Source: Halomarina salina (lineage in GTDB: Archaea > Halobacteriota > Halobacteria > Halobacteriales > Haloarculaceae). Taken from it: a stretch of 64,000 bases of DNA. Positions 3,487 through 46,445 of this stretch are shown here, in pieces. The first letter of the stretch is position 1, and each line of letters starts with the position of its first letter. The translations under genes and the position numbers were made by a program. The notes beneath the pieces are model-generated. The model did not search any database, was not told where the DNA came from, and saw nothing but the letters and a program-made list of their open reading frames with translations. The DNA lies in contig NZ_JALLGW010000005.1 in NCBI RefSeq assembly GCF_023074835.1, positions 62,001 to 126,000 of the forward strand. Reading direction: 5' to 3'.

Positions 3487-4593
3487 ATGTCCCAGCGCAC
3501 TCTCACCGGCGACGCCAGCACCAGTTCCGCCACTATCCCGCACCCGTCTCGGACGACCACACCACGCCCCAGACGAGCTCTGAGGCCCGAAGACGATCCG
3601 GACTCGGACGAACGAACACCAACAGCCTCCGAGACCGAACGCCAGCACCGACACCCCGACCACTGCTGCCCCGAGTGTGCGACTGACGAACATCTCGTCG
3701 TCGACAAGACTGAAACCTTCTGTCAGGCGTGTGGCCTCGTGGTCGCCCGAGACCTTCTTGATCGGGAACTCCAGTGGGAGACAACCGCCGATGGCGAAAG
3801 ACAACCTGCTCGGGGCGGCGCTCCCACGACCATCAGACGCCACGACAAGGGACTCCCGACCGAGATTGGCTCCTACCGCGACGGCTACGGAAACGAACTC
3901 TCATCGAAGACACAGCGCCAGTTCACACGCCTTCGGAAGTGGGACGACCGCGCGAAGGCGAGCACCACTCACGACCAGTCGCTCCGTACCGGCCTTGGCG
4001 AAATCGCCCGTCTCGTGAGTGCGGCCGAACTCCCCGCACCGATCCACGACCGCGCTGCGAGACTCTTTCGCGACGCCTGGGATAGTAATCTCCTCCGTGG
4101 GCGCTCCATCGAAGCCATCGCGACCGCCAGCATCTTCGCCGCCTGTCGCCTCGAACGCCTGCCACGGTTCCTCGAGGAACTTGCCGCCGTTGCCCGCGTC
4201 GACGAATCCGATATCAAAAGCGCCTATCGACTGCTGAATCGCGAGCTCGAACTCGCAACGCCACCGCCGCTCCCGCAGGACTTCCTCCCTCGACTCGCCA
4301 ACGCCGTCGACGCCCACCCCCTGGTCGAACGACGAGCCCACCAACTCGTCACCGCCCCCGCTGTCGGTGTCCTCGCCAACGGCCGACAACCCGCCGGCGT
4401 CGCCGCCGCGTGCCTCTATCACGCTCACGATGAGAGCGATCTCACCAACCTCCGGCTCACGCAACAGCGACTCGGCGACGCAGGCTTCTCCACTCCAACG
4501 ACCATCCGGAACATCCGCCGGGAACTTCTCTCGCTCGACGATGCCGGTGATCTCCCCGATCCAGACGGCAATCTTGACGACTACCTCAGGTAG
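3487..4593 (+). CDS. tfb: Transcription initiation factor TFIIB (TFB)
   Basis: A 368-residue archaeal TFB, which bridges TBP on the promoter and RNA polymerase and recognises the BRE. The sequence shows a zinc ribbon with Cys61/Cys64 (CPEC) and Cys79/Cys82 (CQAC), a B-reader-like segment (HDKGLPTEIGSYRDGYG), and two cyclin-fold repeats at about 155-245 and 255-350 (SIEAIATASIFAACR in the first, PAGVAAACLYHA in the second). The roughly 55-residue N-terminal extension rich in Ser/Thr/Arg is unusual. Haloarchaea carry several TFBs with partly specialised promoter sets; a plasmid TFB could serve backbone promoters, which is inference. A hairpin leader precedes the gene. Confidence 0.93.
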   Translation: MSQRTLTGDASTSSATIPHPSRTTTPRPRRALRPEDDPDSDERTPTASETERQHRHPDHCCPECATDEHLVVDKTETFCQACGLVVARDLLDRELQWETTADGERQPARGGAPTTIRRHDKGLPTEIGSYRDGYGNELSSKTQRQFTRLRKWDDRAKASTTHDQSLRTGLGEIARLVSAAELPAPIHDRAARLFRDAWDSNLLRGRSIEAIATASIFAACRLERLPRFLEELAAVARVDESDIKSAYRLLNRELELATPPPLPQDFLPRLANAVDAHPLVERRAHQLVTAPAVGVLANGRQPAGVAAACLYHAHDESDLTNLRLTQQRLGDAGFSTPTTIRNIRRELLSLDDAGDLPDPDGNLDDYLR

Positions 4594-4634: not shown

Positions 4635-4683
4635 TCCTACGCAACAACTGAACCGACCACCGAATTTACTCTGTTGCGTAGAA
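4635..4683. promoter_or_regulatory. TCCTACGCAAC inverted repeat, copy 1
   Basis: Arm TCCTACGCAAC at 4635-4645 faces GTTGCGTAGaa at 4673-4683, 49 bp end to end. The spacer contains an A+T-rich stretch (GAATTTA) that could be a TATA box. It lies just upstream of hairpin leader copy 3. Three more copies with almost the same size are at 7864, 31881 and 42789. Confidence 0.6.
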
Positions 4684-5153: not shown

Positions 5154-5366
5154 ATGAGCATCATCCACACCGTGACTGCATTGCTCGCTCGCGAACTCCT
5201 CGCCCGACTCGACGAGCAGCTGAGTTCGACCACTGAAGCACGGTCGAGCACCCAGAACCGTACCGACGCAGACCAACCCCCGAACACGCTCGAAACCGAT
5301 GAGTACCAACACCGAATCCGACACCGCCGACGCACAGCCCGCGACCGCTCCCGACGTCGAATCTGA
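5154..5366 (+). CDS. Hypothetical small protein overlapping the PCNA gene start
   Basis: A 70-residue frame whose first 50 residues look like a genuine small helical protein (MSIIHTVTALLARELLARLD). The last 22 residues overlap the PCNA gene in another frame and become Arg-rich, as expected when one frame is constrained by the other. The start has a hairpin leader with GGTGAGGGG 6 bp upstream. Overlap with PCNA (5299) suggests coupled translation. Function unknown. Confidence 0.5.
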   Translation: MSIIHTVTALLARELLARLDEQLSSTTEARSSTQNRTDADQPPNTLETDEYQHRIRHRRRTARDRSRRRI

Positions 5367-6303
5367 GGCCGAATCCGAATCCGAGATCGACACCCAACCG
5401 GAACCCGAGGTCGAAACAAAAGCCGAACCGGAATCCGGCCCCAACGTCGAAACCGACACCGACACCGACGGAGACGCCGAGACGGACACCAAAAGCGAGA
5501 GCGAACCCGAAAGTGAGGGTGACGACGACGCAGAAGAGATCGTCATGAGCCCGCCCCAGCAGTTCACGGCCGCCATCAAGGGCGGAGCGATCAAAGAGTT
5601 CGTCAGCACGCTTCGCGCCATCGTCGACGAAGCGAAAATTCGCGTCGGCCCAGACGGTATCCACACCCGAGCCGTCGACCCCGCCAACGTCGCGATGTAC
5701 GACGTCACCCTTGCCGCCGGAGCCTTCGAGTCCTACGACGCTACCGAGGGAGTCCTCGGTGTCAACCTCGAACGCTTCGAGGAAGTCCTCAAACTCGCCA
5801 AGAAAAACGACCTCGTCCAGCTCTCGTTCAACACCACGTCGTTCAAGCTCGTCATCCACATCGACGGCGTCGAGTTCACGATGGCCCTCATCGACCCCGA
5901 CAGCATCCGCAAAGAGCCCGAGATCCCCGAGATGGACCTGCCCATCTCCCTCACGCTCGAGGAAGCACAAATCTCGCGTGGCGTCAAGGCCGCCGATATG
6001 GTCTCCGACCACATCCGCTTCCGCTGTGACGAGGCCGAGACCACCGTTTATATCGAAGCCGAAGGCGACACCGACAACGTCAGTGTCGAACTCGCAGATG
6101 ACGACCTCGTCGCGCTCACGGCCGCTGACGGCAACGCACTCTACAGCCTCGATTACGTCAACGACATCTCCAAACAGTTCCCTAAGAGCACGGAGATCAC
6201 GCTCACCTTCGGCGGCGACTTCCCGATGATGTTCGAGTACCAGTTTAGCGACGGCGAATGCGACGTCCTCGCGATGCTCGCCCCGCGTATCCAGAGCGAC
6301 TAG
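5299..6303 (+). CDS. pcn: DNA polymerase sliding clamp (PCNA) with acidic N-terminal extension
   Basis: Residues 83-334 form a complete archaeal PCNA: FTAAIKGGAIKEFVSTLRAI, then VDPANVAMYDV, LVIHIDGVEFTMALIDPDSIRKEPEIP (interdomain connector) and the C-terminal motif MLAPRIQSD. The ring tethers DNA polymerase, ligase and repair enzymes through PIP boxes. Residues 1-82 are an extra, almost purely acidic low-complexity extension. A second in-frame ATG (5545, Met83) would give a normal-length clamp, so the start may be there; I kept 5299 because the extension has coding composition. A plasmid-borne PCNA beside RPA and TFB suggests a partly autonomous replication set. Confidence 0.93.
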   Translation: MSTNTESDTADAQPATAPDVESEAESESEIDTQPEPEVETKAEPESGPNVETDTDTDGDAETDTKSESEPESEGDDDAEEIVMSPPQQFTAAIKGGAIKEFVSTLRAIVDEAKIRVGPDGIHTRAVDPANVAMYDVTLAAGAFESYDATEGVLGVNLERFEEVLKLAKKNDLVQLSFNTTSFKLVIHIDGVEFTMALIDPDSIRKEPEIPEMDLPISLTLEEAQISRGVKAADMVSDHIRFRCDEAETTVYIEAEGDTDNVSVELADDDLVALTAADGNALYSLDYVNDISKQFPKSTEITLTFGGDFPMMFEYQFSDGECDVLAMLAPRIQSD

Positions 6304-32636: not shown

Positions 32637-32999
32637 GTGCCGCCCCACGACATCCCCCGCTGGGAAGACATCGACCCCAACGATATCGACTACGAAGCCC
32701 GCGACGAGAACCCGACCGGCCACGAACGGACACTCCGCTCACTCCGGTCGCAAATCGACTCCACCGAAGCGATTCTCAGGCGCTACCTTCGCGAACTCGG
32801 CGTCTCAACAAGTGGCGACCTCGCCCGTGTGTCGATCCCGACGCACGTACAATATCGCGACCCCTTCGCGTTCGACCGCGCACGCCAGGCCCGCACCGCC
32901 CAATCGAATCTTCGGAGCCGACGCCAATACTTTTGCCAAGTATTTGCCGAGCATCGACGTCGCAAACAGAAGACTGAAACCACGGATTCGGGTCACTAG
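32637..32999 (+). CDS. Hypothetical helical protein, GTG start
   Basis: A 120-residue protein starting with GTG 32637 (GTGCCGCCCC). It is helical, acidic at the N-terminus and strongly basic at the C-terminus (RSRRQYFCQVFAEHRRRKQK), so it may bind nucleic acid. No ATG gives a better start. It ends just before the origin-like repeats at 33027. Confidence 0.6.
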   Translation: MPPHDIPRWEDIDPNDIDYEARDENPTGHERTLRSLRSQIDSTEAILRRYLRELGVSTSGDLARVSIPTHVQYRDPFAFDRARQARTAQSNLRSRRQYFCQVFAEHRRRKQKTETTDSGH

Positions 33000-33026: not shown

Positions 33027-33102
33027 TTACAACACGAAAAGGGGGTGTGTTACAACACGAAATAGGGGGGTCCAAAGTCCGTTACAACTCGAAAAAGGGG
33101 GG
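33027..33102 (+). repeat. Three direct repeats resembling origin recognition boxes
   Basis: TTACAACACGAAAAGGGGG (33027), TTACAACACGAAATAGGGGG (33050) and TTACAACTCGAAAAAGGGGG (33082) are in the same orientation, 23 and 32 bp apart. A dyad-like 5' part, GAAA and a run of G resemble the haloarchaeal ORB to which Orc1/Cdc6 binds. No Orc1/Cdc6 gene is in the window. Confidence 0.5.
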
Positions 33103-33133: not shown

Positions 33134-33144
33134 TCCTACGCAAC
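33134..33144. promoter_or_regulatory. TCCTACGCAAC half-site
   Basis: One perfect arm; the opposite arm has decayed to TTGTACATAGGA at 33166-33177. It lies about 200 bp before the gene at 33342. Confidence 0.45.
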
Positions 33145-33341
33145 AATTGAATCCGGATGGCTCCCTTGTACATAGGAACCGAGCCGACGTCGCCGATTGG
33201 CGCTTCTTCGGTAAACGTTCACTCGGGCTCAGAACCCGATACTTCTGCAACCCGTGTCTCGGTGTATTGGCTACAGTCCCCACATTTCCACATTCAATGT
33301 GGGCTGCGCGTAGTTATGCCTGAACTCCACCTACAACGTGT

Positions 33342-33701
33342 GTGAATATTCCCTCCACGTACCCGACACTCAGCTTGGAATCTGAGGTGGCTCTCGACTC
33401 ATATGATATGATTACGATCATGGATGGCCCGGGTGTGAAGGGCCTCGAGCGATACTTTCTCGGGTACTTCAACGAAGACCTCCGCGACGCTGACGGAACC
33501 TTTCTGGCCCGCCCCGTCGGGCATCACGAACTCCCCCATCCGATGACGCTCCCAGAAATCGAGGAGTGGGCGCTCAAATACCTCAGCGTTCCCGAGGAAG
33601 CCCTCTCAGAATGCGAAGAACGAGAGCTCCGCACCAACCGACGCAAGCGGACAGATCTGCCCGACGGAAGGAACACCGAGGACAGCACCGGAGCGACCTA
33701 G
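33342..33701 (+). CDS. Hypothetical protein, probable GTG start
   Basis: A 119-residue frame starting with GTG 33342; an alternative ATG is at 33408. The core (MDGPGVKGLERYFLGYFNED, then HPMTLPEIEEWALKYL) is alpha/beta and acidic, and the end is charged and disordered. Not recognised. No hairpin leader of the common type is seen here. Confidence 0.55.
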   Translation: MNIPSTYPTLSLESEVALDSYDMITIMDGPGVKGLERYFLGYFNEDLRDADGTFLARPVGHHELPHPMTLPEIEEWALKYLSVPEEALSECEERELRTNRRKRTDLPDGRNTEDSTGAT

Positions 33702-44961: not shown

Positions 44962-45638
44962 GGTGGAGGTTTTCGGAGGGGGGCGGCGGTCGCGTGCCGC
45001 TCAGATGCTCTACGCGACGAGGCGACAAAAAGGGATTTGGACCCTCACGCTCTCTCCCCCCACAAAACCGCGTATTCACGGCGAGACGCGCTGGGGGATG
45101 GTCAGACTACGGCACTTACCGGGGCATCTGCAACGGAGTGGCTTCCCACGGCACCACCCGTGAGATTCCACTGGAACACCCTCCTAAAGATGTCAGCGTG
45201 ACAGCGGGAGGTCACCCCGTATGTTGGGGCAATCTCTGCCTCGTCACCTGTCCGCACAGACGCTCCTATCCGGGTGTCGAAGTCTTGGCCAATCGAAATA
45301 GGGACTCAGGCCGTATATCATTTCGGTGATGGGGTAGATCGACGGACTACGCTACATTCGTTTAGCCACTCGGCCCATGAGCCAGCAGAAACGCATCTGG
45401 TCGAAGAACCTGTAGAACACAGGTTCTGTGTGGAACCTTTGTACCACGGTAGTAGGGCCAAGGAGGAACACGAATCTTAGCGTATAACTCGTAAAACCCG
45501 TAGAACCTGTATAACTCATATAACCCAAAGAACGTGTCTGACGTAGATTTATACGCGTTCTACGAGTACCTCGCCACATAACCTGTAGAACTGGCAGTAC
45601 CCGTATCACACAGGTTCTACAGATAACACGAGATACCC
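44962..45638. other. 677-bp gap: partition site and possible ORB dyad
   Basis: No convincing gene. It contains a TTCCACTGGAA dyad at 45166-45176, resembling the palindromic part of haloarchaeal origin boxes, and then the 9-bp repeat arrays (45403-45623) that lead to parA. Confidence 0.6.
45403..45623 (+). repeat. Centromere-like 9-bp repeat arrays upstream of parA
   Basis: Six tandem 9-mers at 45485-45538: TAACTCGTA, AAACCCGTA, GAACCTGTA, TAACTCATA, TAACCCAAA, GAACGTGTC. A second run begins at 45579 (TAACCTGTA, GAACTGGCA, GTACCCGTA). At 45403-45437 there is an inverted form around GTAGAACACAGGTTCTGT. Tandem short repeats just before parA are typical of partition sites and autoregulatory operators. 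Confidence 0.7.
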
Positions 45639-46445
45639 ATGACACATCGACTCTCGATCTCGATGCAAAAAGGCGGTGTCGGAAAGAGTACGACGACGAT
45701 CAATCTCGCAGGAGCGCTCGCCGTCTCTGAGGGACTTGATGAGGATAGCGACGTGCTCGTCGTCGATGCAGACCCCCAGGGATTCATCACCATCACGCTG
45801 GGTCTGCGCGAATACTACGTGAGTGAGGATCGGTCCCTCTACGACATTATGACAGATATTGATCGATTCGACGAGGTAAATGACCTCATCGTCTCACACA
45901 GCGAGTTCGACGTCCTACCAGCCCACGGGAGCAATTTCCAGCTCGAACGTGAGCTCTGGTCACTCAGCAGGACCCAGGAGCGCCTGGGGATGGTACTCGA
46001 CCGGATTGAGCACGACTACGACTATGTGCTCATTGATTCACCACCCAACATGGGACCACTCGCAGACGGCGCGTTGTTAGCCGCCCGTAACGTCCTGTTT
46101 GTCTCACGTGCAGACCCAATCGCGACGTTCTCGATGAATCTCCTTACACAGGAGATCAACCAACTCGAACGCGAGTTCCAAACAGATATCGGGATTGTGG
46201 GAGCGGTGGTCAATGCTGTAACCCGGAACAACATCAGCGAGGACCGCCTCGAGTGGTTCCACAAGAACATCGGAGAAGAGCACACGTTCACCATACCAGA
46301 GACAGTCGCCATCGAAGGCGCGTTTGCTCAAAACCACAGTATCTACACCTATGAACCGGAGAATCGCCATCGGGAACAGAAGGCCGAGGAAGTCCGTGAG
46401 ACCTACAACGGCCTCGCACGTGCCGTGGAGGATTACTTCGCATGA
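45639..46445 (+). CDS. parA: ParA/Soj-type partition ATPase
   Basis: A 268-residue deviant Walker ATPase. The motif KGGVGKSTTT lies at 12-21 with the signature lysine, followed by VDADPQGF (A'), and VLIDSPPNMGPL (Walker B region). ParA uses ATP-dependent DNA binding to position plasmid copies, with a centromere-binding partner. The gene starts just after the 9-bp repeat arrays and overlaps the next gene by ATGA, a standard par operon layout. Confidence 0.92.
   Translation: MTHRLSISMQKGGVGKSTTTINLAGALAVSEGLDEDSDVLVVDADPQGFITITLGLREYYVSEDRSLYDIMTDIDRFDEVNDLIVSHSEFDVLPAHGSNFQLERELWSLSRTQERLGMVLDRIEHDYDYVLIDSPPNMGPLADGALLAARNVLFVSRADPIATFSMNLLTQEINQLEREFQTDIGIVGAVVNAVTRNNISEDRLEWFHKNIGEEHTFTIPETVAIEGAFAQNHSIYTYEPENRHREQKAEEVRETYNGLARAVEDYFA

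Follow-up and report, generated by a model that had tools for sequence, protein, structure and literature searches.

Three remote origin recognition boxes as a candidate binding array for a plasmid's own Orc1/Cdc6 in Halomarina salina

Introduction

What purpose might a cluster of origin recognition boxes (ORBs) serve where no initiator gene lies beside it? The question is raised by three direct repeats in an intergenic gap of contig C5 (NZ_JALLGW010000005.1; total length 135,404 bp) of Halomarina salina. The window, by which the whole stretch of DNA analysed is meant, comprises 64,000 nucleotides and corresponds to G000:C5:62001-126000. In a first-pass annotation of this window the repeats had been described as ORB-type, with a G run and in a low-G+C gap, and had been tentatively read as a replication origin at which a host Orc1 or some other initiator might bind. 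The description was confirmed, the proposed origin and its foreign initiator were not. On the best reading of the sequences, the triplet consists of ORBs and forms a remote array of candidate binding sites for the plasmid's own Orc1/Cdc6, a view based on the identity of the boxes with those of the origin, on the conservation of their position and spacing, and on their co-variation with the origin boxes of the same plasmid.

The box triplet and its probable cognate origin

Three same-strand copies of TTACAAC(A/T)CGAAA..GGGG were located on the forward strand of the window, at 33027-33045 (remote box 1, TTACAACACGAAAAGGGGG, an exact match to the origin-box pattern), 33050-33068 (box 2, 23 bp after box 1) and 33082-33100 (box 3, 32 bp after box 2), giving a start-to-start spacing of 23 + 32 bp. 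A pattern search of the whole window with up to 3 mismatches returned 3 matches, all of them members of the triplet, whereas 100 dinucleotide shuffles of the window averaged 0.29 matches and none of them contained 3. Each box ends in a G run, and such a G-string of haloarchaeal ORBs is described in the available text of PMC3528665. The G+C content of the gap was 0.46-0.48 over C5:95,000-95,150, compared with ~0.6 over most of the window, and an Rfam scan of the window gave 0 matches.

An orc1/cdc6 gene is absent not only beside the repeats, as had been noted at first pass, but from the entire window. A search for the initiator gene beyond it, which the same annotation had advised, led to the same contig: of 13 Orc1 matches in the genome, 2 are on C5, both outside the window and within C5:1810-12515, >80 kb from the triplet as the contig is laid out. 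The ORF C5:11085-12515(-) scores as Orc1/Cdc6, its product matching the Cdc6 AAA+ lid (PF22703, 84.2 bits) and the C-terminal winged helix (PF09079, 38.0 bits) above the respective cut-offs, and reaching 231 of 501 bits for NF001625, which is under that cut-off.

When the whole genome was searched with up to 2 mismatches, the box pattern was found on C5 alone, in the triplet and at 11 places around C5:10,680-13,260; the other nine contigs held no box at this threshold. Ten of the 11 places carry at most 1 mismatch and flank orc1, four of them upstream of the gene and six downstream, with a box array directly downstream at C5:10680-11045. Of the upstream boxes, the outermost two are inverted, face each other across 316 bp, have an extended G tail each and enclose a stretch rich in AT (0.72 over 40 nt). 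Inverted boxes, an AT-rich stretch and a G tail constitute the usual build of a haloarchaeal origin according to the same part of PMC3528665, and the orc1-flanking boxes with their inverted pair are likely the true origin of C5.

Across the 16 fixed positions of the cognate-origin box, the triplet boxes show 0 mismatches. With a matrix trained on the plasmid's own origin, box 1 reached 28.4 bits, compared with 17.1 for the best of 6 shuffles, and the remote boxes scored 28-40 bits with the own-origin matrix, exceeding 6 shuffles. The distance from triplet to orc1 origin is ~83 kb along the contig, or ~52 kb the other way if C5 is circular. Circularity is not demonstrated, since no overlap of the contig ends was found; C5 is collinear with the circular record of Haloplanus sp. 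GDY1, which is compatible with a circular C5.

Conservation of the remote site in related plasmids

Relatives were sought by similarity to both proteins flanking the triplet. The protein of the type encoded at 33342..33701 was detected in 10/146 family genomes and in 10 plasmid records, several of which represent the same replicon (matching lengths and coordinates), so that 15 distinct replicons were counted. Own-type Orc1 boxes adjoin the 33342-type gene or the gene pair in 5/15 replicons, and the remote cluster stands at the homologous place of the backbone in five plasmids, namely C5, S. rubrum, S. salinus, GDY1 and G089. It comprises 3 boxes with spacing 23/32 in both S. rubrum (NZ_CP026311.1, 106923-106996) and S. 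salinus (NZ_CP104004.1 = G143:C2, 91269-91342), 2 boxes in GDY1 (NZ_CP098516.1, 151083-151133) and 1 box in G089 (G089:C49, 4434). GDY1 retains the last two boxes, one of them with a mismatch, and its first copy is visible but decayed. The conservation of the S. salinus boxes is partly selected, this plasmid having first been met via an exact pattern match; S. rubrum, GDY1 and G089 were identified by protein similarity first and scanned for boxes afterwards. In NZ_CP104004.1 the origin region is repeated at an offset of ~193,090 bp, which probably represents an uncollapsed overlap of a ~193 kb circular plasmid.

Four further replicons, H. rubicundus, G047:C3, G065:C4 and DFY28, were scanned with matrices derived from the respective own origin boxes, and none showed a box of its own type next to the 33342-type gene. 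For HW8-1 the scans covered boxes of the TTACAAC type and one of the three Orc1 box types native to it; for G076, G021 and G028 they consisted of a loose pattern run across the retrieved stretch, and G025 and G029 lay outside the box scans. The plasmid of Halobaculum magnesiiphilum, with an Orc1 of the same type (91%), carries no remote box within 2 mismatches, so the remote site is not required by this Orc1 type; a 33342-type gene is likewise absent from it.

At the 48 fixed box positions, identity to C5 was 48/48 in S. rubrum, 48/48 in S. salinus and 41/48 in GDY1, compared with 73/144, 71/144 and 52/144, respectively, at 144 spacer positions (36-51% around the boxes) and 251/300, 251/300 and 212/300 at 300 neighbouring coding positions. 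Conservation of boxes versus spacer gave Fisher p values of 3e-12 to 1e-9, where S. rubrum and S. salinus are near-identical at the remote site and thus not independent. The 9 variable positions within the boxes vary freely, with 4, 4 and 5 of 9 identical to C5 in the three plasmids in the same order.

G089 is the most diverged of the five plasmids, its Orc1 being ~59% identical to that of C5. At the position of GAAA in C5, its origin boxes (n = 9) carry GACA/GATA in 8 cases and GACG in 1, and the single remote box, which reads TTACAACTCGACAAAGGGGGG, carries GACA. The orc1 module of G089 is located at a different place of the backbone than in C5, and the remote box has therefore retained its separate place and yet matches the initiator. 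This co-variation of remote and origin boxes is regarded as the strongest sign that the site may work with the plasmid's own Orc1, and from the sequences compared we infer that Orc1 would, with high confidence, bind the remote array.

Flanking genes and other elements of the window

The array is abutted by the 3' end of a conserved gene for a 120-aa protein (32637..32999, +), the left backbone anchor, whose product was found in 6/146 family genomes and has no Pfam match. To its right follows a conserved gene for a 119-aa protein (33342..33701, +), also with no Pfam match, which is placed directly right of the array in C5, GDY1 and G089 and at ~1.5 kb from it in S. rubrum and S. salinus. A palindrome, CCACATTCAATGTGG, occupies 33288..33302 (no strand assigned), shortly before the 33342 gene starts; similar palindromes occur in S. 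rubrum, S. salinus and GDY1, with shortened forms in other plasmids, and it is probably a promoter operator of the 33342 gene, predicted as separate from the ORB array.

Beside the array, at 33135..33144 (+), lies the single dyad arm CCTACGCAAC, at which place S. rubrum and S. salinus carry the full dyad; the arm is probably an element separate from the ORB array. The dispersed dyad, TCCTACGCAAC-N26..27-GTTGCGTAGGA, was observed at window positions 4636, 7865, 31882 and 42790 (C5:66636, 69865, 93882 and 104790), with further copies at C5:17061 and C5:33538. S. rubrum, S. salinus and GDY1, like C5, contain several copies, and G089 contains none. In several copies a conserved GTTTGTC.CCCCCGAGTCGGTG.GGGAC stretch comes next, a short way ahead of an ATG, and 8 dyad copies fold into two hairpins with almost no covariation and no Rfam match; the dyad may serve as an operator or as an RNA leader.

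A different dyad, TTCCACTGGAA, had been put forward at first pass as a further piece of the repeat feature. It does exist at window position 45166, but a second copy is found at C5:79695 (window 17695), the dyad was missing from all four related plasmids that were scanned and likewise from the GDY1 sequence in the alignment, and it was discarded as a part of the ORB array. Iterated GTAGAACCTGTATAAC-like repeats, likely a plasmid centromere, are located within window 45380-46445 upstream of a ParA gene (45639-46445, AAA_31). A plasmid-encoded TFIIB-like factor and a PCNA are encoded at window 3487-4593 and 5299-6303.

Anatomy of the remote site

In 5/5 plasmids the remote boxes are all direct and an inverted partner is absent. 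The 40-nt AT maximum was 0.62-0.65 at the remote sites versus 0.70-0.72 between the inverted origin boxes, and the 12-nt tail contained 6-9 G at the remote boxes versus 10-11 in the inverted origin pair, both in 5/5 plasmids. No GC-skew reversal was detected around the triplet, which is situated neither in an intergenic region adjoining orc1/cdc6 nor directly downstream of a cdc6 gene. Lacking the inverted pair, the AT-rich core and the extended G tail, the triplet is probably not an origin.

The doublet formed by remote boxes 1 and 2 of C5 is 42/46 identical to the 23-bp-spaced doublet that ends its orc1-downstream array, and in the three plasmids having both doublets, remote and orc1-tail copies of the same plasmid are 42-43/46 identical. 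GDY1 has no intact doublet either at the remote site or at the orc1-downstream array. By this resemblance the remote site is built like the downstream array and not like the origin. A role of the remote position as replication terminus was also considered and rejected as a general rule, the shorter arc between origin and array ranging from ~17 kb on the 139-kb G089 replicon to ~95 kb on the 198-kb plasmid of S. rubrum.

Wider box searches

In viral contigs, 15 stretches with one exact box match each were obtained and set aside as being at about chance level (estimated from the size of the collection and the 16 fixed bases of the pattern). A pattern scan of genome contigs yielded 91 stretches. 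Neighbouring 8-kb tiles taken for remote clusters proved to be two sides of one origin, and Natrinema hispanicum, considered as a remote-array case, carries two whole origins on one contig. Several haloarchaeal tiles contained a single box with no orc1 within the tile.

One remote box of its own was observed at G065:C4:167349, ~66 kb from the orc1 of that plasmid and of a different ORB type (CCATTCACACTCTGGGGGG; 28.7 bits versus 19.0 for the best of 6 shuffles). It adjoins a parA-like gene and AATTCA-type repeats, and both Orc1 and ORB type differ from those of C5. Boxes of the CCATTCACAC type were seen beside the box array of an Orc1 of the TTACAAC type in L046 near 1343-1377 and at places in G015, G053 and G093, where they are single or form a doublet ~34 bp apart; crosstalk between plasmids is a possible explanation.

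Possible roles of the remote array

A negative-control site for the plasmid's own Orc1, acting by titration or handcuffing, is favoured over an origin, because the remote site is built like the downstream array and because a precedent exists in oriC2D of Haloarcula hispanica; we put the chances of this role at about even. The remote array would hold Orc1 away from the origin or, alternatively, would pair with the orc1-downstream array, and either titration or handcuffing would limit initiation and copy number. A replication fork would duplicate the remote array some time after the origin. Against such a role it must be said that three remote boxes on top of ten origin boxes offer a modest titration capacity, and that the remote cluster shrinks to 2 boxes in GDY1, one of them mismatched, and to 1 in G089.

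A more specific version, in which the remote array would serve as a timer dedicated to replication, is rather unlikely. Orc1 bound at the orc1-tail and remote arrays would silence the origin through a DNA loop or handcuff, and later passage of the fork over the remote array would shift the balance. If true, the array would give datA or Vibrio crtS an archaeal equivalent that works through Orc1, lies far from a plasmid origin and stays tuned to its own initiator as initiator specificity changes.

Orc1 at the array could instead regulate transcription of the neighbouring genes and so couple a gene block to plasmid replication. In favour of this, the array of C5, GDY1 and G089 occupies the gap that precedes the 33342 gene, and Orc1 boxes are also present just upstream of orc1. 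The distance to the next promoter, however, varies from ~100 to 210 bp in these three plasmids and grows to ~1.5 kb in S. rubrum and S. salinus, with other genes between; the array stays instead with the 3' end of the upstream gene, and homologous genes of other plasmids keep their upstream region without boxes. A transcriptional role is judged improbable, to about the same degree as the timer.

Somewhat less probable still is a part in plasmid segregation or higher-order structure, by which Orc1 would bridge origin and remote array or couple replication to partition. The 23/32 bp spacing, fixed in three plasmids, would suit such a structure, and in the unrelated plasmid G065:C4 the sole remote own-type box is the one beside a parA-like gene, but in C5 the parA gene is 12.5 kb from the array.

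Were the array a backup (dormant) origin, or a second one for this replicon, the match of its boxes with those of the origin would be explained, and dormant origins exist in haloarchaea (PMC4595724, available text). This reading is nevertheless considered a poor candidate, given that in 5/5 plasmids the boxes are direct only, with no AT-rich stretch and fewer tail G, and that the GC skew does not reverse.

A functionless remnant, left by an earlier origin or by duplication of the orc1-tail array, would agree with the likeness of the remote doublet to the orc1-tail doublet and with the decayed copy in GDY1; it is very unlikely, because the boxes are conserved amid a spacer of low identity and because the G089 box follows the variant of its own origin. 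The origin for a host Orc1 or a different initiator, suggested at first pass by the lack of an adjoining orc1, hardly merits consideration beside an orc1 on C5 itself that is flanked by ten boxes of the same sequence, a sequence confined to this contig at up to 2 mismatches.

Comparison with known systems

The E. coli datA locus, which finds mention in PMC4010727, is a remote cluster of initiator boxes that could titrate the initiator. Both it and the triplet are remote initiator-box clusters with potential for titration, but the initiator belongs to another family, and the triplet is plasmid-borne. Iteron control loci of the P1 incA kind are direct repeats bound by the plasmid initiator outside the core origin and next to the origin. 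Direct repeats outside the core origin, predicted as sites of the plasmid's own initiator, are likewise present in the triplet; iteron loci, in contrast, adjoin the origin, and Orc1/Cdc6 is unrelated to Rep proteins.

The orc1/cdc6-adjacent haloarchaeal oriC, as given in the available text of PMC3528665, shares the same kind of box with a G run, but the triplet is not adjacent to orc1/cdc6 and lacks inverted boxes, AT-rich core and extended G tail. The published origin survey covered, according to that text, solely the intergenic regions directly beside orc1/cdc6, and remote arrays would therefore be missed by it. In the literature searched, which mostly did not extend to subscription journals, no ORB cluster far from the origin on an archaeal plasmid was found described.

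The closest archaeal parallel discussed here, oriC2D of Haloarcula hispanica, consists of 11 ORBs downstream of cdc6E, supports no autonomous replication, reduces the copy number of oriC2 plasmids and was deletable solely once oriC2 was gone, for which titration was proposed by the authors (available parts of PMC3936714). Like oriC2D, the triplet lies outside the actual origin and comprises several ORBs of the type belonging to the initiator of its replicon, and its doublet resembles the orc1-downstream array of this plasmid. The two differ in that oriC2D is directly downstream of cdc6E, as far as that text describes it, and the triplet tens of kilobases away and unlinked from the origin, and in that repression was measured for oriC2D. 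ORB arrays beside orc1 are thus already known, and archaeal initiator titration has been proposed for them in the case of oriC2D; apparently new, with respect to the literature searched, is an array remote from the origin that keeps its position across plasmids and stays matched to its own initiator. A conserved remote array that follows the base changes of its origin offers a clean way to test genetically for control of replication by Orc1 over long range.
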